Below are positions 5,208 to 42,395 of a stretch of 43,850 nucleotides of DNA, piece by piece. The notes beneath the pieces are model-generated. The model was given only the letters and a program-made list of their open reading frames with translations. It ran no database searches and was not told the DNA's origin. The stretch spans positions 1 through 43,850 of the forward strand of contig JAAUSR010000041.1 of the NCBI GenBank assembly GCA_012032555.1, read 5' to 3'. Positions within the stretch are counted from its first letter, which is position 1. Each line of letters begins with the position of its first letter. The stretch comes from Thioploca sp. (GTDB lineage Bacteria > Pseudomonadota > Gammaproteobacteria > Beggiatoales > Beggiatoaceae). The position numbers and the translations under genes were made by a program.

Positions 5208-6475
5208 TTAATTGTTTTCAGGAACAATTTCATTGATTACAATTTCAACCTTATTTTGAGTTGCTAACTTTACCGGATTTACTTGTCCTTGCAAATCACC
5301 CGGTTGAGGAGTAGCTAGACCGCTAGAAGAAATGCGGGCTAGCAAAGTAATTTCTTGGAAATTCGATAATTTCATTGTTGGTACCATAGCCATGCTATCG
5401 TCTAAAGTAACTTGCGTGGGTAACTCACTCGCCGATTTTTTCACGATAGCTAAAGGCATCGGTGGACCTTGGCTAGCACGTGCATAGATAAATACGGTAT
5501 CAGTTGGTTTTACTTTCGCCTGTAAAGTGGGATCTAAACGAACTTTAACTTTAATCTGAGTGGCTGAAGTAGAACTAGAAGATAGGGTTGCTGTTAGCGT
5601 AGTGGTGGTTGAAGGCGTTGATTCTTCGTCTTGAATTTGCGCTAACTGACGGGCATCAGCAATTTGTTTTTCTAAAGCTTGTCGAGCTTCTACGTCATCC
5701 GCCGGTAATTGATTTAAAAAACGCTGCCAATAATTAATAGCAACTAAGTAATCTTGTTTTTGAGCAGCGGCAAAACCAGCTAACCAAAGTGCTTGTTGAT
5801 GATTCGGGTCTAATGCCAAAGCAGCAGTTAATAAATGGTGGGTTGCCCAGTTAATTTGCCTTCATTGGCGAGCGCTAAAGCTTCGGCAAAATCAGTAAGT
5901 AATTGGGGATCTTTTTCTCCTACTCGTGTTAGAATTTGATTATAGGCTTGAGCAGCTTCTTGATAACGTTTTAGCGCGCTATAAGAACGTGCTAACATAT
6001 ACCAGCCTTTAGCATCATCGGGTTGTTGTTGCAGGCGAGCCGCTAATTTATTCACCATGTCATCAAAATTGTCAGGTAAATGTCCCTCTTCTGGATGGGT
6101 TAGGTTGGTTACGGGAGTTTCTGCCACCAAAAGTTGGGGTGCACCTAATTTCCAATAGCCACCAACCGCTAAAGCTGGAATACTTATCGCTACAATAATA
6201 GCTGTCCAAATCGCTCGTGATTGTTGAGCAAGCGGACGACTATCTTGGTACTCTTGTAACAAGGTTTTATCTAATTCTTGTTTTGCTTGAGTATATTGTT
6301 CTACGGGCAAATTTTCTTGAGTTAATTCAACCAGACGTTCTTTATAAATAGCAATATTGATGGTATTACGATCAATTTCAGTGAGTGGTAAATTCTTCCT
6401 CAACAATGGCGGGATAACAAAAGTCAACGCTAGTACGATTAGCCCAGTTGCTATGAGCCAGAATTCTAAAATCAT
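5208..6475 (-). CDS. ccmI: CcmI cytochrome c maturation protein, split by a one-base frameshift
   Basis: Two open frames form one CcmI. The first (6475-5828) gives the N-terminal membrane segment (residues 4-24), a cytoplasmic loop, a second membrane segment near residues 93-113, and TPR sequence ending LANEGKLTGQPTIY. The second frame (from about 5835 to 5208) continues with LLTAALALDPNHQQALWLAG, the next TPR, then the CcmI C-terminal domain with GPPMPLAI, VTLDDSMAM and ARISSSG. One extra base near 5834-5842 (for example T3 to T4 on the coding strand) joins them exactly. CcmI presents apocytochrome c to the CcmF/CcmH ligation complex. Its start overlaps the region just after the ccmH stop, as expected of a ccmHI unit. 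Probably a sequencing indel; a real lesion would remove apocytochrome binding. Confidence 0.88.
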
Positions 6476-28149: not shown

Positions 28150-30066
28150 TTAATATTCTTCGTCTGGATTATTATTTTGAAACTCAGCATTATCGCTTTC
28201 TTCATCGCTTTCTTCATCTTTCAATTCATCATGGTTGTCATCCGTTTCTTTATCCGCTGATATAGGTTCCTGCCTATGATTATTTGGAGATTTATTACTA
28301 TCATGGCTGATAGTATCTCTTGTTAAAGCCCCTTTATCTTTTAATTGAGATTCTTTATTGTCTGGAAATACGTTACTTTCAGTTTCTAGTGTTTCATCGG
28401 TGGATTTATTCTCAAGCGCTATCGTACTGGAGTTATCTTCTAACTCTATTTCGCTAGTAGCGGTTGCAGCGACTAACTGACCGCCTTTGAATTCTAACTC
28501 ATCCAGAGTGTAAAGATTATTTTCAAATTCAAGTTGTTTCGGTTGGCGATTAGCTAACACCAAAATACCTTTACCAGAACGTTTACCTTCTTCAAAATAC
28601 CCCTCATATCGATCACCGCCACTGGAGATGTAAATTCCCATCCCAGTCCGTTTACCTTCAGCAAATGCGCCTTCATAAACTTCTCCATCTACCCAAGTTA
28701 ACTTACCTTTACCATGACGTTGACCTTTAAAAAAATCGCCTTCATAACGATCACCATTAGCCCAAATGTAAGTCCCTTTCCCATGACGTTCATCATTGAC
28801 GTATTCACCTTCGTAACGATCCCCATTAGACCAGATATAAACACCAACGCCATGACGTTTACCGGCTTCAAAATCCCCCGTGTAGCGATCCCCATTAGAC
28901 CAAATATAAATTCCCTTACCACTCCGTTTGTTATTTAAGTATTTTCCTTCATAAGAATCGCCATTAGACCATTTAAATAAGGTCGGTTCACTGAGAAGAT
29001 TAACATCGTCGCTGGGCACATTATTTTGTGGTTCAATCAGTGGCGTCTTTTCGGTAATTTTTGGGGTCGTTTCCATTGATTTAGCTGGCTTATCTTCTAA
29101 TTTAGCAACCATTAACTTTGGTGTTGAGAGGGGTTCATTTTTAACGATCGCTGCGGTGGGTTTAGCCGATTTTTCATTGTGAGTAGTTATGGGTTCTATT
29201 TGTTCTGCTGATTTTTCTACGGTTGTGTCTGCTATAGTCGATTCTTTATCTAATTTAGCTAAATATTCTGGTTCAAGATCGTCAAAAGCTTCTTCTATTA
29301 TTTCAGTAAGGTCTGACTTTTTATTTTTGGTAGTGATAGTTTCTGAATCGCCAGCTAATTTGTCGTTAGAATCCGGTGGTGTGGTATCAACTTCTTCTTT
29401 TTCTATGGGTGTTCCAATCTTATCTTCTACCGATTCAGTTTCAGTTATTATTTTTTTATCTGCTTTGTTTTCGGATTGCTTTTCTTCTTTATTTATTTCC
29501 GGCTTGGCTTCCTCTTGATCAGATTGTGTTACACTTACTTCATCTTCTTCTTTAAGCTTATCTTGAGGTTTTTCTTTTACCGGTAGAGTTAAAACTGGTG
29601 TTTCAGATAAGGTTGATTTAGATTGAGTTGGGGTTGTTTTAGAAGCACGAACCATTTTACCGTTACTTCGTTTACCAGCAACAAATTCACCTTTAAATTT
29701 ATCACCATTTGCCCAAGTATAAGTCCCTTCTCCATCGCGTTTATCCTCCAAGTATTCACCAACATAACGATCACCATTTGCCCAAATGTAAGTACCCTCA
29801 CCATCCCGTTTGCCTTCATAGAATTCGCCCTCATAACTATCTCCATTGACCCAAGTATAAACCCCTTTACCGGTTCGATTTTTACCCTCATATTCACCTT
29901 TATAACAATCACCGTTAGACCAACAAACACTTTTCTTAACGGTCATCGGTTCTTCATCATCATCAAAATCTTCATCATCGGTTGCGGAAATGAGGGGTGA
30001 GGATGGTATGACGATAAATAAAAACGCCACTACACTGAAAACAAGTAAGTAATTTATCTTAGTCAT
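28150..30066 (-). CDS. Secreted MORN-repeat protein with acidic linker and tail
   Basis: Start at ATG 30066, ten bases after GAGG; the ATG 15 bases upstream overlaps that site. A signal peptide (residues 1-28, ending near ISA) is followed by an acidic stretch, then four MORN repeats (about 50-137), a 230-residue low-complexity linker rich in Glu, Lys, Thr and Pro, six more MORN repeats (about 367-505), and an Asp/Glu/Asn-rich tail. Repeats are 23 residues long with consensus W-x-NGDRYEGEY...GKRHGKGTY, mirrored by 69-base DNA repeats. MORN arrays are extended beta-hairpin scaffolds; a periplasmic or surface location follows from the signal peptide. Its gene is directly followed by ccmB, which is unexpected. 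Function is unknown. Confidence 0.85.
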   Translation of the reverse strand: MTKINYLLVFSVVAFLFIVIPSSPLISATDDEDFDDDEEPMTVKKSVCWSNGDCYKGEYEGKNRTGKGVYTWVNGDSYEGEFYEGKRDGEGTYIWANGDRYVGEYLEDKRDGEGTYTWANGDKFKGEFVAGKRSNGKMVRASKTTPTQSKSTLSETPVLTLPVKEKPQDKLKEEDEVSVTQSDQEEAKPEINKEEKQSENKADKKIITETESVEDKIGTPIEKEEVDTTPPDSNDKLAGDSETITTKNKKSDLTEIIEEAFDDLEPEYLAKLDKESTIADTTVEKSAEQIEPITTHNEKSAKPTAAIVKNEPLSTPKLMVAKLEDKPAKSMETTPKITEKTPLIEPQNNVPSDDVNLLSEPTLFKWSNGDSYEGKYLNNKRSGKGIYIWSNGDRYTGDFEAGKRHGVGVYIWSNGDRYEGEYVNDERHGKGTYIWANGDRYEGDFFKGQRHGKGKLTWVDGEVYEGAFAEGKRTGMGIYISSGGDRYEGYFEEGKRSGKGILVLANRQPKQLEFENNLYTLDELEFKGGQLVAATATSEIELEDNSSTIALENKSTDETLETESNVFPDNKESQLKDKGALTRDTISHDSNKSPNNHRQEPISADKETDDNHDELKDEESDEESDNAEFQNNNPDEEY

Positions 30067-30353
30067 TGAATAAAACCTCATTTATTTAATAAAAAATAGT
30101 TTCACATTGATAAAGTTAAGTATATAACGTTACTAGACAATTGCACCCCATACCGCTTATCCTAATTAGGAATGCTGGAATAATAACTTGATATTATAAA
30201 GATTAAAATTCTATCTGCCACTTTCATTTCCAGAAAATTTTAATAATAAAACCAACAGGTTATAATTAACACCTGCGCATGATCTTAATACTTTAATAGT
30301 CGTAAACTATTTTTGTGACTTATGTAAATAAGTCATTAAATAGTAGACAATTA
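30067..30353. other. Divergent intergenic region, MORN-ccmB / radA
   Basis: AT-rich and without a supported gene. It must carry the promoters of the MORN-ccmB unit (minus) and radA (plus). A TATACT hexamer occurs on the minus strand about 60 bases before the MORN start, but no good -35 pairs with it. The radA side ends in the heptamer array listed next. Confidence 0.5.
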
Positions 30354-30402
30354 TAAGTGATGACTGATAACTGGTAACTGATAATTGACAACTGATAACT
30401 GA
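30354..30402 (+). repeat. Seven tandem TAACTGA-type heptamers upstream of radA
   Basis: Seven contiguous seven-base units occur without gaps: TAAGTGA, TGACTGA, TAACTGG, TAACTGA, TAATTGA, CAACTGA, TAACTGA. The last ends two bases before the radA start codon at 30405, so the array occupies the place of the 5' leader and the ribosome binding site. No purine-rich Shine-Dalgarno sequence is otherwise visible. Intergenic TAACTGA direct repeats have been described as abundant in marine Beggiatoaceae genomes, with a suggested regulatory role. I see no second array in the window. Confidence 0.9.
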
Positions 30403-30404
30403 CT

Positions 30405-31820
30405 ATGTCACGCAAAAAAACCGCTTACACTTGTCAAAAATGTGGTGCTATTGTTCCTAAATGGGCTGGTCAATGTCCAGAATGTGGAGAATGGAATACA
30501 TTAGAAGAAACGATGATAGAAGAATCTTCTACTAAATATCAAGTTCGTACTGGTTATAGTGGTGTAGCGGCTCATGTTTGTTTATTAGATGCCATTACGG
30601 CGATAGAAGAAGTTCGTACTTCCACCGGATTGTCCGAGTTAGATAGAGTGTTAGGTGGCGGTTTAGTGACGGGTTCGGTAGTTTTGATTGGTGGTGATCC
30701 CGGTATTGGTAAATCAACCTTATTATTACAAACCCTAGCGACAATGAGTCAAACTGAAGTGAATTCACCACTTTATGTTACTGGTGAAGAATCACCTCAA
30801 CAAGTGAGATTACGTGCTCAACGATTAGGGTTAGATGTTCACCGGGTAAAGTTACTGACGGAAACGCGAGTAGAAAGTATTTTAGAAGTAGCCATACAAG
30901 AACAACCTAAAGTCATGGTGATTGATTCCATTCAAACAATTCATACCGAATTATTACAATCCGCTCAAGGTTCAGTGGCTCAAGTCCGTGAAAGTGCCGG
31001 ACAACTCGTCAGATTTGCTAAACAAGCTAATATAGCGGTATTTCTAGTTGGACATGTGACAAAAGAAGGTGCCTTAGCCGGACCACGTATTTTAGAACAT
31101 ATGGTTGATACCGTTTTATATTTTGAAGGAGATAGTGGAACTCGCTTTCGAGTGATACGAGCGATAAAAAACCGTTTTGGTGCTGTTAATGAATTAGGCG
31201 TATTTAGCATGACCGATAGAGGGTTAAAAGAGGTCAGTAATCCCTCAGCTATTTTTCTGTCACGTCATGAAGAACAAGTCCCCGGTAGCGTTATTATGGT
31301 TACTCATGAAGGAACACGACCGATGTTAGTTGAAGTACAAGCTCTAGTTGACGATTCAGCTACGCCTAATCCACGTCGCGTGGCTTTGGGTTTAGACCAA
31401 AATCGGTTAGCTGTGTTATTAGCAGTCTTACACCGACACGGCGGCATTGCGACTTATGACCAAGATGTTTTTGTCAATGTGGTTGGTGGAGTGAGGGTCA
31501 ATGAAACCGGAGCAGATTTAGCCGTATTATTAGCGATATTATCCAGTTTACGTAATGTGATCTTAGCGAGAAATTTAGTCGTATTTGGCGAAATTGGATT
31601 AGCCGGCGAGATTCGTCCCGTACCGAATGGATTAGAGCGCTTACGTGAAGCAGCTAAACACGGTTTTAAACGAGCTATCGTGCCTAAATCAAATGCACCC
31701 CAAGAGAAGTTATCAGCTATTGAAGTTATTCCCGTTTGGCGATTAGTCGATGCTTTACACAGTGTTGCTGCTTCAACCGTAAAACCTGACGATGATTTGT
31801 TTACGAATGAACCCAATTAA
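30405..31820 (+). CDS. radA: DNA repair protein RadA (Sms)
   Basis: The 471-residue protein has all RadA hallmarks. These are a zinc finger with C10, C13, C24 and C27, a RecA-like ATPase with Walker A GGDPGIGKST (K103), VMVIDSIQT as Walker B, the family motif KNRFG, and a C-terminal Lon-like domain (NVVGGVRVNETGADLAVLLAI). RadA is a hexameric DnaB-type helicase that promotes branch migration of recombination intermediates. Length is normal. The ATG at 30405 directly follows a tandem heptamer array rather than a normal ribosome site. The downstream neighbour is convergent. Confidence 0.97.
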   Translation: MSRKKTAYTCQKCGAIVPKWAGQCPECGEWNTLEETMIEESSTKYQVRTGYSGVAAHVCLLDAITAIEEVRTSTGLSELDRVLGGGLVTGSVVLIGGDPGIGKSTLLLQTLATMSQTEVNSPLYVTGEESPQQVRLRAQRLGLDVHRVKLLTETRVESILEVAIQEQPKVMVIDSIQTIHTELLQSAQGSVAQVRESAGQLVRFAKQANIAVFLVGHVTKEGALAGPRILEHMVDTVLYFEGDSGTRFRVIRAIKNRFGAVNELGVFSMTDRGLKEVSNPSAIFLSRHEEQVPGSVIMVTHEGTRPMLVEVQALVDDSATPNPRRVALGLDQNRLAVLLAVLHRHGGIATYDQDVFVNVVGGVRVNETGADLAVLLAILSSLRNVILARNLVVFGEIGLAGEIRPVPNGLERLREAAKHGFKRAIVPKSNAPQEKLSAIEVIPVWRLVDALHSVAASTVKPDDDLFTNEPN

Positions 31821-36458: not shown

Positions 36459-39400
36459 ATGTTAACCCGAATTTTCCAGCGTTGGTCAATCCTTTTGATT
36501 TGCCTAGCTACGTTCAGCCACCCCGTCAGCGCTGCCATCCCCTGGTGGCTAGGTGGTGAACCATCATTAGATCCCGGCCGACCCCCACTGCTCGCCATCA
36601 TTGAACCCACCACCAGTGATAATATTTACACTACTAACCAGGATACCCTCGATTTAGCCGGTAAGGTGGCTTCACTTTCTAGTATCGATCGCGTTGAATG
36701 GGATAGCTTTAATCTGGAGATGGATGATTTCCTAGATTTTGGTCAAGCGACGTTAACTGATACAGACTATGGCACGGTTAAAGACTGGAGTCAAGCCGCG
36801 ATTCCGTTGCAGGATGGTCACAATGAAATTACCATTATCGCTTTTGATAGCCTACAACGCTCCAGTATGGACCGCTTAGTCGTCGTTAAAACCACCGCAA
36901 CGACCGAGGAGCTGTTCGACGAAGAACTCGCTCAGAAAATCGAGGCCACGGCTTGTGTGGGTGACCCGATTGATACCGCCACCGGGAGTCAGTTGCTCGA
37001 ACAGACGCTGTTAACGGTGCAAGGCGTATTGCCAATCCGTTTTACGGTGAATTACAACTCCCGCTTGCTTAAATCGGGGCCGGTAGGAAAGGGTTGGGAT
37101 CACCAGAATTTTGCTACGCACTTGGAAGAATTACCCAACGGCGATGTTAAGATTCACTGGAGCACTAACCGTTATAATCTCTTCCCGAAAACCGCACTGG
37201 GTACTTATCAACCGGTTCACCTTAACTGTCAATGGGATCAGTTAGTCAAAAATGCAGATGCGAGCTTTACGCTCATTCGCCAACATCGCCATGTCTATCA
37301 ATTTGATCCGCAAGGGCAATTGCTAGCCGTCGGCAATCGGCAGGGACAGTTTTTACATTTGAGTTATGATGATCAAGAGCGTTTAATTAAAATCACCGAG
37401 CCAGTGTCAGGTGTGTTTCTCGACTATACTTATAACTCGCAAGGTCTCCTAACTACGGTGACCGATCCCTTAGGACGTCAAGCGCAACTCGACTATAACG
37501 ATCAGCAACAACTGATAACCTTGACTGATGCTGCCGGGCAAGCCGTTCATTACACTTATAACACTTGGGGGCAGATTTTAACCGGCACCAATGCCGAAGG
37601 CATCCAATTGTTTAGCAATACCTATGGGGCTGATCATCGGCTCATTGCCCAAGCGGATAGCCACAACCAACCGCTACAACTCCGTTATGACACCAGCCAA
37701 CCCGAGCAAATCATCACCACCGTGACCAATCGCTTAGGGGCTACCCAGGTTTATGTGCACAATAACCATTACCAATTACTGCAAGTTCAAGATGAACTCG
37801 GTCAGGTAACGAGTTACACCTATGATGAATTAGGTCGGCGGCGTACCGCGACTGACGGTAATCACCAGACCACTACTTTTGATTATGACGACCACGGCAA
37901 TTTAACGACTCTAACCGATGCCGCTGGTCATCAGACTCACTTTAGTTATGATGAGCAGCAGAATTTAGTTAGTGCTACCAATACCCGCAGTAAAACTATT
38001 CAACTGAATTATGATACCAATAACAATCTAGTTAGGGTTACTGATCCGCTCAACCAAACCACCACCTACCATTACAATGAGCATGGGCAACTGCTTACCC
38101 AAACCAGCCCCCGTCAAGGCGTAACCCATTACGAATACACTCAAGGTCAACTCACTCGCCTCACCACGCCCACTGGGATCACTTACACGCTCGGATATGA
38201 TGCGGCCGGACGGTTAATAACCCTAACTGCTGCGGAACACTACTCAGCGACACTCACTTATGATGGCATGGATCGACTGGTGGCCATTACTAATCCACTC
38301 GGTCACACCCTTCGGATGACTTATAATTCCCGTAACCAGTGGCTCACGCTGACCGACGCCAACGGTAACCTTACCCAACGCCGCTATGATGGTAACGGCA
38401 ACCTCAGCAGCCAAACCAATGCCCTCGGCCAAACCACGCATTACCAATATGATGGTGCCGACCGACTCATTAAAATCAGCGATGCCAAAGGGCAAACCAC
38501 TCAATTGAGTTATGATGCCAAAGGTCGGTTACTGAGCGTCACCAATCCGTTAGGTCAAACCCAGCAACTGAATTACGATGCCGCCGATAATTTACGCCAA
38601 CAGCTCGATGCTTTAGGCAATACCGTCGCTACGCTGCATTACGACCAATTAAACCAGCTCCAAAGTTTCACTAATGCCTTACAACAGACCACCCACTATG
38701 ATTACGATGACTTGAACCGACTAACCCAACGCACCGATCCACTCCAACATTCGACACAATGGCAATATGATGATTTGAACCGGCTGATAGCCAGTGTCGA
38801 TGCGCTAACTGGAGAAAGTGAGCAACACTTTGATGCTGATGGTAATCGCACTAGCTTGAGTGATCCCAATCAGAATCTAACGAATTTTGATTGGGACCGC
38901 GATGGTCGTCTCCTCCAAGAAACCGTGGCGAGCGGCGCTCAGCATAACTATACCTACAACGCCCAAAATTTACTGGAACAACTGACCAATGCTCGCGGAC
39001 AAGTTCGTCACTTCGACTATGATGCGGCCGGACGGTTGAGCCAAGTCACCGACCCCGATGGTACGGTCTCTTACACCTATGATCCCAATGGTAATGTGCT
39101 GACGGTTACCGATACCAACGGCACGATTTCGCGTCAATATGATTCCCTCAATCGCGTCACTCAATCTACTGATACCCAAGGAAATACTTTACGTTATGAA
39201 TACGATGCCGTCGGGAATTTAGTGAAATTACACTATCCCGACGGTCGGGTCGTCAACTATGAATATAATGCGGCCAAGCAGTTGATCAAAGTGACCGATT
39301 GGGCGGGACGGGTAACACAATATGAATATGATCCCAATGGCCGATTAAGCCGTGAGATTCGTCCCAATGGTACTCAAATGACGCGTCGTTATGGTGTGGC

Positions 39401-40730
39401 GGGGCAGTTACTACAACAAGTCGATACCGATAATCAAGGTCAGATAATCAGTCAATTTGACTTTCGCTATGATGCCGCTGGGAATTTGATTGAAGAAATC
39501 GTTACACCTGAAGTGGAAGGCGAGGCACTGATGCCGGTGCAAATGACGTATACGGTAGCGAATCAGTTGGCGACGTATAATGGTCAAGCCGTAAGGTTTG
39601 ATGCGGATGGGAATCTGACTTTGGGTCCGGTGTTGGGGCAGATGGCAGAGTTGCAGTTTGATTCACGGAATCGGTTGGTGCAGGCCGGTGGGGTGAGTTA
39701 TCGGTATGATGCGGAGAATCAGCGAGTTGGGGTGAATGGGGCGAGTTATGTGGTGAATTCGCAACCGGTGTTGAGTCAGGTGTTGGTGAAAGAGGAGAAT
39801 GGGAAAGAAACGTTTTATGTGTATGGGTTGGGGTTGCTTGGCGAAGAAAGTGAGGAGGGGTATAGCAGTTATCATTTTGATTTCCGAGGAAGTACTGTTG
39901 CGTTGACGAATGAGCGGGGGGAGGTGGTGGAGCGGTTTGGGTATGGGCCGTATGGGGAGTTAGTAGCGGGAGAGGTTTCGGTAACGCCATTTTTGTTTAA
40001 TGGGCGGTTTGGGGTGATGTCGGATCCCAATGGGCTGTATTTTATGCGGGCACGGTTTTATAGTCCCGAGATTAAGCGGTTTGTGAATCGGGATGTGTTG
40101 CTGGGGGAGGTGGGGGAGGGGCAAAGTTTGAATCGGTTTGCCTACGTTCGTGGTGATCCGGTTAAGTATACTGATCCATTTGGGTTAGATCGGATGTGCG
40201 GTCCAGGTTATAAGGCAGTTCCTATACCAGAACAACCCAGGATATCATTTTGTAATCCGGACAGAAGTGATATTAATCAACTTATTTGTGTAACAGCCGA
40301 ATGTGTAATGTATGGAGCTATTCCGTTTCCAAATTGGGAGTGGTTGGAAAATGTTTCCCTTCCTAGAGCATTTGGTCCAGGAGTTTATTTATGTAAACGA
40401 CCCATTAATGTTGCTTGGGTTCCACAAGGAGTAAGACCCTATCTTCAGCATCATTGGATTAAGACAAGAAAGTATGAAGCCGGAATGGGCGGACAATGTC
40501 CGGTACCTGGACAGAATTGTGCTGATGTTCCATATAGTCCAACACAAACCAAAGATCATTCTGGTCAATCATTAAAAATCAATGTTTCATGTGAATTAGT
40601 GCCCAATGTAGACGAAGAATGTGTTAACCAATTGATTATACCTGGGCGTCCAACCGGTAATTGGACACTCATTAATCAATGTCAAACATTTGCTAGTAGT
40701 GTAATAAATCAGTGCAGCAACAACTATTAA
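36459..40730 (+). CDS. Secreted RHS/YD-repeat polymorphic toxin
   Basis: A 1423-residue protein with GGAGG six bases before its ATG. It has a signal peptide (1-26, ending VSAA), a PWWLGGEPS start, a beta-rich N-terminal domain (to about 165), a DUF6531-like region with CVGDPIDTATGSQ, more than 25 YD repeats (about 290-1040), the RHS core (FDFRGSTVALTNERG, YGPYGE, SPEIKRFVNRD) and the junction DPFGL at 1239-1243. After it comes a 180-residue tip with QHHWIKT, KYEAGMGGQC, DHSGQ, and NQCQTFASSVINQC. The His-before-Cys order fits a circularly permuted papain/NlpC-P60 (LRAT-like) hydrolase, which is inference. Export in such proteins leads to toxin release in contact-dependent competition. The next gene may be immunity. 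Confidence 0.9.
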   Translation: MLTRIFQRWSILLICLATFSHPVSAAIPWWLGGEPSLDPGRPPLLAIIEPTTSDNIYTTNQDTLDLAGKVASLSSIDRVEWDSFNLEMDDFLDFGQATLTDTDYGTVKDWSQAAIPLQDGHNEITIIAFDSLQRSSMDRLVVVKTTATTEELFDEELAQKIEATACVGDPIDTATGSQLLEQTLLTVQGVLPIRFTVNYNSRLLKSGPVGKGWDHQNFATHLEELPNGDVKIHWSTNRYNLFPKTALGTYQPVHLNCQWDQLVKNADASFTLIRQHRHVYQFDPQGQLLAVGNRQGQFLHLSYDDQERLIKITEPVSGVFLDYTYNSQGLLTTVTDPLGRQAQLDYNDQQQLITLTDAAGQAVHYTYNTWGQILTGTNAEGIQLFSNTYGADHRLIAQADSHNQPLQLRYDTSQPEQIITTVTNRLGATQVYVHNNHYQLLQVQDELGQVTSYTYDELGRRRTATDGNHQTTTFDYDDHGNLTTLTDAAGHQTHFSYDEQQNLVSATNTRSKTIQLNYDTNNNLVRVTDPLNQTTTYHYNEHGQLLTQTSPRQGVTHYEYTQGQLTRLTTPTGITYTLGYDAAGRLITLTAAEHYSATLTYDGMDRLVAITNPLGHTLRMTYNSRNQWLTLTDANGNLTQRRYDGNGNLSSQTNALGQTTHYQYDGADRLIKISDAKGQTTQLSYDAKGRLLSVTNPLGQTQQLNYDAADNLRQQLDALGNTVATLHYDQLNQLQSFTNALQQTTHYDYDDLNRLTQRTDPLQHSTQWQYDDLNRLIASVDALTGESEQHFDADGNRTSLSDPNQNLTNFDWDRDGRLLQETVASGAQHNYTYNAQNLLEQLTNARGQVRHFDYDAAGRLSQVTDPDGTVSYTYDPNGNVLTVTDTNGTISRQYDSLNRVTQSTDTQGNTLRYEYDAVGNLVKLHYPDGRVVNYEYNAAKQLIKVTDWAGRVTQYEYDPNGRLSREIRPNGTQMTRRYGVAGQLLQQVDTDNQGQIISQFDFRYDAAGNLIEEIVTPEVEGEALMPVQMTYTVANQLATYNGQAVRFDADGNLTLGPVLGQMAELQFDSRNRLVQAGGVSYRYDAENQRVGVNGASYVVNSQPVLSQVLVKEENGKETFYVYGLGLLGEESEEGYSSYHFDFRGSTVALTNERGEVVERFGYGPYGELVAGEVSVTPFLFNGRFGVMSDPNGLYFMRARFYSPEIKRFVNRDVLLGEVGEGQSLNRFAYVRGDPVKYTDPFGLDRMCGPGYKAVPIPEQPRISFCNPDRSDINQLICVTAECVMYGAIPFPNWEWLENVSLPRAFGPGVYLCKRPINVAWVPQGVRPYLQHHWIKTRKYEAGMGGQCPVPGQNCADVPYSPTQTKDHSGQSLKINVSCELVPNVDEECVNQLIIPGRPTGNWTLINQCQTFASSVINQCSNNY
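39465..40175 (+). repeat. RHS core repeat, copy A (in the full-length gene)
   Basis: This 711-base segment, from the codons RYDAAGNL to the D of the DPFGL junction, has a copy of identical length at 41106-41816 and a shorter one at 42844-43235. Large stretches are identical at DNA level. From about 39530 the coding strand becomes very G-rich and C-poor compared with the upstream part of the same gene. Confidence 0.9.
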
Positions 40731-41105: not shown

Positions 41106-41816
41106 CGTTATGATGCGGCTGGGAATCTGATTAGGGAATAATCCCTGCCGATACTTGAATGGGAGGCCCTGACACCGATACAGATGACTTATACGGCGGC
41201 GAATCGGTTGGCGACGTATAATGGTCAGGCAGTGAGGTTTGATGCCGATGGGAATATGACTTTCGGGCCGGTGTCGGGGCGGATGGCGGAGTTGCAGTTT
41301 GATTCGCATAATCGGTTGGTACAAGCTGGCGAAATCCGTTATCGGTATGATGCCGAGAATCAGCGAGTGGGAGTAAATGAAACGAATTATGTGGTGAATT
41401 CCCAACTCGAATTGAGTCAGGTGTTGGTGAAGGAGGAGAATGGGAAAAAAACGTTTTATGTGTATGGGTTAGGGTTGATTGGAGAAGAGGGTGAGGAGAG
41501 GTATCGAAGTTATCATTTTGATTTCCGTGGTAGTACGGTGGCGTTGACGAATGAGCGGGGGGAGGTGGTGGAGCGGTTTGGGTATGGGCCGTATGGGGAG
41601 TTGGTAGCCGGAGAGGCTTCGGTGACGCCGTTTTTGTTTAATGGGCGGTTTGGGGTGATGACGGATCCGAATGGGCTTTATTTTATGCGGGCACGGTATT
41701 ATAGTCCCGAGATTAAAAGGTTTGTGAATCTGGATGTGTTGCTGGGGGAGGTGGGAGAGGGGCAAGGCCTGAATCGGTTTGCTTATGGGATAGGGAATCC
41801 TATCAACTATATTGAT
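41106..41816 (+). repeat. RHS core repeat, copy B
   Basis: Same length as copy A and largely identical in DNA, but the first 78 bases are more diverged and contain a TAA stop in the RHS frame at 41139-41141. The homology starts abruptly after a non-coding stretch, so this is a displaced core end, not a complete RHS gene. Confidence 0.9.
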
Positions 41817-42395
41817 CCTGAAGGCAGGTTAGCTTGGTGGATTATCCCTCTCGTCACTATTGGGTTAACTCTGTACGATGTAATCGTTCCACCAGAGTTA
41901 CCAGCGGGGTTGGAGCAAGATGCGATTGTGCCGAGTATAGGGCCGGTAGATTTCTTTATAGGTCTTAGTAGTGGAACGACTAGTTTGGTCAAAGGTGTAT
42001 GTGGAAAATTAGAAAAATCTTCTCCAAGAGCACTTAAATATCCCCTTGACCGTTTCCCTTTTTCAAAACATCCATTGTCCCGTAGATTATCACCTGGGGA
42101 GACAGCCGGCGAATATGTTTACATAAAGGATGCTAAAGGAGTCGTGCATATCGGTCCAAACAGGAGTCACATGCACGCTCAGCTTTTAGGAGGGGGAAAA
42201 CCAGTGACTGGTGCAGGAACATTGACTATTGACTCCAAAGGAGTTGTAATTGAACTTACTAATATTTCCGGCAACTTTCAATTCAGTGCCGAAAGTTTAA
42301 TTTGGGTAAAAAAGGCGATAGAAAAACAGGGCTTAAGAGTCGCTCCTGAGGCATTTAGAAGCTATGAGGAAATAATGAAACAAAGTTTTTATTAA
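41184..42395 (+). CDS. Displaced RHS core with alternative toxin tip (orphan module 1)
   Basis: A 403-residue frame from ATG 41184 covering the final RHS core (residues 1-215, with FDFRGSTVALTNERG, YGPYGE and the junction DPEGR at 211-215), followed by a tip unrelated to that of the full-length gene. The tip starts with a hydrophobic helix (LAWWIIPLVTIGLTLYDVIV). It ends in a domain with GEYVYIKD, HAQLLGGGKPVTGAG, and LTNISGNFQFSAES. The pattern L-x-x-G-x-P-V-x-x-A-G with a later N-x-S-G is one I associate with polymorphic-toxin tips, but I cannot name its activity. There is no signal peptide, so expression alone may not secrete it; such modules are thought to replace the tip of the complete gene by recombination. 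A probable immunity gene follows 13 bases later. Confidence 0.8.
   Translation: MTYTAANRLATYNGQAVRFDADGNMTFGPVSGRMAELQFDSHNRLVQAGEIRYRYDAENQRVGVNETNYVVNSQLELSQVLVKEENGKKTFYVYGLGLIGEEGEERYRSYHFDFRGSTVALTNERGEVVERFGYGPYGELVAGEASVTPFLFNGRFGVMTDPNGLYFMRARYYSPEIKRFVNLDVLLGEVGEGQGLNRFAYGIGNPINYIDPEGRLAWWIIPLVTIGLTLYDVIVPPELPAGLEQDAIVPSIGPVDFFIGLSSGTTSLVKGVCGKLEKSSPRALKYPLDRFPFSKHPLSRRLSPGETAGEYVYIKDAKGVVHIGPNRSHMHAQLLGGGKPVTGAGTLTIDSKGVVIELTNISGNFQFSAESLIWVKKAIEKQGLRVAPEAFRSYEEIMKQSFY

Follow-up and report, generated by a model that had tools for sequence, protein, structure and literature searches.

Paired outward-facing TAACTGA heptamer arrays as probable arms of a dispersed dyad element in Thioploca sp., and a degenerate array of the same class before radA

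In Thioploca sp. (genome G000), many TAACTGA arrays belong to a small dispersed dyad element as its two outward-facing arms, which is new here, and the array upstream of radA is a real but degenerate member of the published repeat class, to which the dyad element is an added finding. Since 2015, TAACTGA arrays in giant sulphur bacteria have been suspected of forming a regulatory network; an origin as dyad arms can be tested in congeneric genomes and cautions against treating every array as a purpose-built regulatory site. The data are probably best explained by dispersed dyad elements with heptamer arms, of which the radA array would be a solo, decayed member.

Features of the radA locus are given in Table 1, with positions in the window (the whole stretch of DNA analysed, 43,850 nt). 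The original prediction of seven TAACTGA heptamers was correct in that seven in-register units point at radA, but only units 4 and 7 are exact and the other five carry one mismatch each (in order TAAGTGA, TGACTGA, TAACTGG, TAACTGA, TAATTGA, CAACTGA, TAACTGA). The array is gapless and ends two bases ahead of the ATG, as had been stated, and TRF reported it at 30353-30402 with period 7 (79% matches, score 65). The downstream product was identified as RadA/Sms (TIGR00416, 629.6 bits vs. a cut-off of 403.05). No SD 4-mer was present in the 13 bases from -17 to -5 of radA. An Rfam sR5 match over the array was rejected as a chance likeness (18.3 bits vs. gathering 40, E = 0.1). Upstream of the array, a perfect 8-bp inverted repeat, TGACTTAT-GTAA-ATAAGTCA, lies at 30316..30335 and is a possible operator. 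Tandem repeats of 69 bp were noted within the MORN-repeat gene (28706-28840 and 29701-29871), and downstream of radA there are two Rhs-type genes (36459-40730, with YD repeats and an Rhs core; 41184-42395, with an Rhs core domain).

Table 1. Positions, strands and supporting evidence for features at the radA locus
Feature	Positions	Strand	Evidence or remark
MORN-repeat gene, divergent neighbour of radA	28150-30066	-	PF02493
Divergent intergenic region, MORN-repeat gene / radA	30067..30404		no outward partner arm
Degenerate heptamer array, 7 units (2 exact)	30354..30402	+	direct reading, TRF, array rule
Gap CT between array and ATG, too short for SD	30403..30404	+	direct reading
radA (sms), DNA repair protein RadA, 471 aa	30405..31820	+	TIGR00416

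Membership of the TAACTGA class of marine Beggiatoaceae, which had been proposed, was supported. According to the available portions of MacGregor 2015 (PMC4679880), a set of this class has at least two TAACTGA, which may adjoin each other or have one or two related 7-mers between them; at radA, TAATTGA and CAACTGA stand between exact units 4 and 7, which makes this array a 'split' set in that sense. The same portions list 169 sets in 'Maribeggiatoa', mostly forward, usually without SD and ending 1 to several nt ahead of starts, and the radA array shows these typical traits, being intergenic, forward, 2 nt from the ATG and without SD before the start. The arrays described here and those of marine Beggiatoaceae thus resemble each other in the heptamer, forward direction, closeness to ATG, mostly absent SD and split units (PMC4679880, available portions). 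The proposed taxonomy also fits, the family including Ca. Thiomargarita nelsonii, in which the heptamer was counted according to the accessible part of Flood 2016 (PMC4853749). radA is not named in the available text of MacGregor 2015 (PMC4679880).

The doublet TAACTGATAACTGA occurs 108 times in the whole of G000 (5.55 Mb, 198 contigs), compared with 2 for the reversed control, and is present in 28 of the 95 genomes searched, this one included; the highest counts fall in the Beggiatoaceae family, with 679 and 738 for two genomes of genus g18. Arrays were called where at least three in-register units had no more than one mismatch each, one being exact, or where two units were exact. The G000 sample (1.154 Mb) comprised the window and 60 further stretches, 51 of them (L061-L111) picked for exact doublets and 9 not, and with 51 of the 61 sequences so picked its densities are not genome rates. 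This rule gave 74 arrays, and none in any of three first-order Markov shuffles; 71 were in stretches picked for array hits, 2 in 126 kb not so picked and 1 in the window. TAACTGA accounted for 117 of the 150 exact heptamer doublets in sampled intergenic DNA, the sample being enriched for it. Among tandem 5-base doublets of the intergenic samples, the AACTT/AAGTT class was commonest (52/245 in G000, 77/238 in the congener).

Distances to starts were calculated for the 917 genes of the G000 sample, with starts from our own codon-based caller. Direction was toward a start for 61 of the 74 arrays, toward a stop for 12, and 1 array was inside a gene. The start-directed arrays end within 11 nt of the start (27), at 12-41 nt (23) or farther away (11), and for some arrays called at 12-60 nt a nearer ATG exists. 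In a looser set (91 arrays, 90 outside genes), 30 of the 90 3' ends were within 11 nt of a start (2.2 expected), and the array-to-start count that had been proposed therefore ties the arrays to gene starts; 8 of the 90 were within 11 nt of a stop (2.1 expected). Array 5' ends showed no excess near starts or stops (1 and 1; expected 2.3 and 2.1). Only 2 of the 91 lie in convergent gaps, although these hold 13% of intergenic bases (gaps ≥60 nt). An SD was found in 0/27 G000 genes with an array within 11 nt (6% in shuffled leaders), 10/21 with an array at 12-60 nt and 273/837 without an array; judged by eye, arrays at 12-60 nt often end just ahead of an SD-like stretch. For the congener (G001), 27 of 34 arrays were directed at a start, and SD frequencies in the same order were 1/13, 4/10 and 315/867.

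Arrays were frequently paired. An opposite-strand partner facing outward within 200 nt was found for 27 of the 74 G000 arrays and an inward partner for none, the remaining 47 having no partner; in G001, 8 of 34 had an outward and 0 an inward partner. Where called genes flank the arrays on both sides, 15 regions contained 16 outward dyads, of which 11 were in tandem gaps and 5 in divergent ones; in the tandem gaps, one of the arms points at a stop codon. Dyads in divergent gaps, but not those in tandem gaps, are what a leader-motif model would predict. An origin as dyad arms explains why arrays face outward and why reverse arrays occur close to stop codons.

Some of the dyads have in common a homologous AT-rich core of about 80-100 bp (GATAGCTTAACC..ATTAATAATTGA..AATTGATAAC). 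When 45 genomes were searched by blastn at E ≤ 0.01, the core was found at 12 places in G000 and 1 in G001; G016 and G012 had one short hit each and the remaining 41 genomes none. At the 15 best G000 core matches, an outward array-like 14-mer (≤3 mismatches; 0.7-2.1% at random places) was present on the left of 11 and the right of 14, with 1 and 0 facing inward. After six known array regions (five seeds) were omitted, 9 core places were left, with outward 14-mers on the left of 6 and the right of 8; the core query ends in arm-like bases that the right-hand test overlaps, which leaves the left-hand test the cleaner. The dyad element accordingly has inverted ends and a homologous core at many places. 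A sequence-only profile, R1, with 19 copies (16 from G000, 3 from G001), matched 67 places in G000 and 50 in G001 at E ≤ 0.01; at least 21 of the G000 matches were nearly full-length (16 training copies, 5 new). R1 matched in 22 of the 42 family genomes, mostly in part outside the genus among the matches listed, and these outside matches may be arrays alone, since R1 holds array letters.

Neither outward dyads nor a shared core are described in the available text of MacGregor 2015 (PMC4679880), where the one inverted repeat lies inside an ORF, and in this respect the present arrays differ from those reported there. No dyad description was found in the parts seen of the literature on Beggiatoaceae heptamer or palindromic intergenic repeats (MacGregor 2015, Flood 2016), and TAACTGA is absent from the RepeatModeler consensus sequences as given in the accessible part of Flood 2016 (PMC4853749). 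The dyads resemble MITEs, including those of Ca. Thiomargarita nelsonii (PMC4853749, accessible part), in being short and dispersed, with inverted ends and many intergenic copies, and in forming a hairpin if transcribed, which for the dyads is predicted by folding; unlike MITEs, they end in variable heptamer arrays, and no target-site duplication was seen at the two presence/absence sites, L209 and 513.86 kb of G001. The heptameric repeats of cyanobacteria and Bacteroidetes, as summarized in the available portions of PMC4679880, also have a 7-nt unit and are mostly intergenic, whereas the present ones are start-directed and often paired around a core; for a Microcystis sample the same portions give 6 of 24 heptamer sets as start-directed.

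Evolution of arrays and elements was followed in G001. A downstream match in the G001 sample was available for 25 of the 74 arrays, and 21 rows were comparable. Four were left out: #9 and #69 because they resembled paralogues (68-70% identity), #71 because it had no flank at the array, and #33 because its first match was 368 nt away, so that the array site was possibly out of view. A run of at least two units was kept in 18 of the 21, #61 was a split set, and #34 and radA (#60) had none, the two loci without array in G001 being L084 and radA. Best-run length differed in 14 of the 18, partly through substitutions. At L209, G000 has the element where G001 has about 26 other nt, with the left edge of the difference at the arm and the SD AAGGTAAGG unchanged in both congeners; this is a replacement of about 26 nt and not a clean empty site. 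The G001 element at 513.86 kb, 17 nt behind a called stop codon, is absent at G000 L105, where the rest of the gap differs too. The G000 array at L106 has no core, and its G001 orthologue has array and core; core loss of this type is a likely route to a solo array.

The radA array could have arisen by such a route. Its descent from a dyad element is plausible from sequence comparison, with two observations counted against it: no opposite-strand partner arm is present, so that the site lacks MITE-like inverted arms, and the dyad-element profile gave over 30067-30404 one non-significant match (30324-30401, 7 bits, E = 0.28), and in another comparison the model matched by its arm part only. For the G001 radA leader, a remnant of the core was likewise unsupported by the dyad-element model (E = 0.82). 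The 47 partnerless arrays also weigh against an element origin, as many may have arisen alone.

The original prediction had the array replacing a ribosome site, and this was contradicted by the radA leaders of relatives (the best 30 of 54 matches, all from the Beggiatoaceae family). An SD 4-mer was present in 2 and missing in 28 of these 30, and the same-genus orthologue in G001, 95% identical, has neither array nor SD. The gene is SD-less irrespective of the array, because both the family leaders and the array-free orthologue are without SD; an array that took over from an SD was therefore rejected, and array presence and SD absence are separate traits at radA. The radA leaders of G000 and G001 aligned poorly beyond the last bases. 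Among the best 30 of 54 matches, TAACTGA arrays precede radA in G000, G017 and G031. The G018 leader (L033, about 1447-1483) has a run of GCAATTA heptamers (TAATTGC on the other strand), a reverse-oriented relative of the TAACTGA unit, and heptamer runs before radA recur in three genera (g1, g17, g18).

Dispersed dyad elements would have an AT-rich core, roughly 80-100 bp long, between a reverse arm TCAGTTA(n) and a forward arm TAACTGA(n). Such elements, or single arms remaining after core loss, would occupy intergenic regions holding a gene start, the arm standing near the SD or, in SD-less genes, near the start codon. Arms would drift by substitutions and length changes, few of which are whole heptamers. 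At radA, a gene that is SD-less with or without the arm, the arm would provide a 5' leader rich in A/U and with little structure, and its likeliest effect would be that of a passive, initiation-permissive leader and no dedicated switch; in read-through RNA, a complete dyad could mask the start that follows. Counting against the element reading, scarcity in convergent gaps and closeness to starts suggest selection or targeting and no neutral spread.

The folding results were as follows. The radA leader had no significant fold, and a folded leader was rejected (z = -0.58). Of three dyads folded, L079 (9943-10086) and L101 gave z = -6.7 and -5.3, with outer arms predicted to pair over at least 16 bp, and L209, with decayed arms, z = -2.3. 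Unpaired fractions of the start region were 0.555 with array in G000 vs. 0.512 with no SD (P = 0.059) and 0.515 with SD (P = 0.084), and 0.590 in G001 vs. 0.516 (P = 0.031) and 0.507 (P = 0.014); array leaders are weakly predicted to be slightly more open than others. The suggestion that radA offers a clean case of recombination-gene control was not demonstrated, given the array-free congener, the lack of a significant fold and the lack of any functional pattern in the class in the available text of MacGregor 2015 (PMC4679880).

A dispersed regulon, including radA, in which arrays bind an RNA-binding protein (S1, Csp-like or unknown) controlling or promoting initiation, is regarded as rather unlikely. 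The binder proposed in the available portions of MacGregor 2015 (PMC4679880) is S1, Csp or another, and mobile-element carriage was considered there too. Such sites would agree with the arrays directed at starts and abutting the start or SD, with the persistence of runs of at least two units in 18 of 21 orthologous arrays (another being a split set), and with the distribution of mismatches. Among 100 single mismatches in G000 and G001, positions 3 and 5 had 2 and 4, and positions 1, 2 and 7 had 25, 17 and 24, as if a period-7 ACTG were kept; low change at positions 3 and 5 hints at its recognition. This bias was weaker family-wide, where variant middle units were counted at positions 1, 2, 3, 5 and 7 (37, 37, 11, 17 and 17, with 27 of the 37 at position 2 from one genome), and the exact-flank design of the counts favours young changes and hence mutation bias, so that constraint on unit positions is weakly indicated, the family-wide counts being less clear. 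Stop codons as the constraint were rejected, positions 1, 2 and 7, needed for TAA and TGA, varying most. Also against regulatory sites are the missing radA array in the congener, the different, reverse-oriented run in G018 and the excess of array ends near stop codons.

A dyad acting as a dispersed promoter-sensing translation insulator is an improbable extension. Read-through RNA from the upstream gene would hold both arms and form a long hairpin burying the next start, RNA begun within the core would bear the forward arm only and stay open, and solo arrays such as that of radA would be relics retaining only the open leader. If true, a single small mobile element would decouple adjacent genes and prevent read-through translation at many loci.

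Plain slippage, by which a simple-sequence repeat grew near starts with neither element nor function, is very unlikely. The congeners do differ by 7 or 14 nt in the arrays at L062 and L099, and the radA units are degenerate; however, crude pairwise alignment of the 18 orthologous arrays gave 17 gaps within or next to the array, of which only 3 were multiples of 7, and no gap in 6 arrays, so that slippage by whole heptamers was not borne out as the chief mode of change. The preferred reading of dispersed elements is independent of that mode. Neither the dominance of TAACTGA among exact doublets of the enriched sample nor the orientation, start closeness and outward pairing would be expected from slippage. 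A general 7-nt periodicity of leaders was also rejected, identity at lag 7 being 0.264 vs. 0.275 and 0.270 at lags 6 and 8 in intergenic DNA without called arrays.

Units serving as -10-like sequences or operators of near-leaderless transcripts are the most doubtful: GATAAC, which we take to resemble a -10 hexamer, stands a few bases ahead of the ATG and arrays are rare in convergent gaps, but a promoter scan of 30060-30420 yielded about as many sites as shuffled sequence (3 vs. 3.2 expected), none of them a forward site within the array, and positions 7, 1 and 2, required for a -10 reading, vary most.

Two further repeats were observed in and beside arrays. A composite unit of 14 bases, TAACTGTTCACTGA, is repeated in register inside arrays (L073, 4214-4255; L099, about 5418-5500; L079; L101) and builds a long array both in L099 and in the G001 orthologue of L099. 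Beside arrays at L037, L038 and L106 there is another dispersed repeat, which ends in CGTGGGAACGAG or in a sequence close to it.
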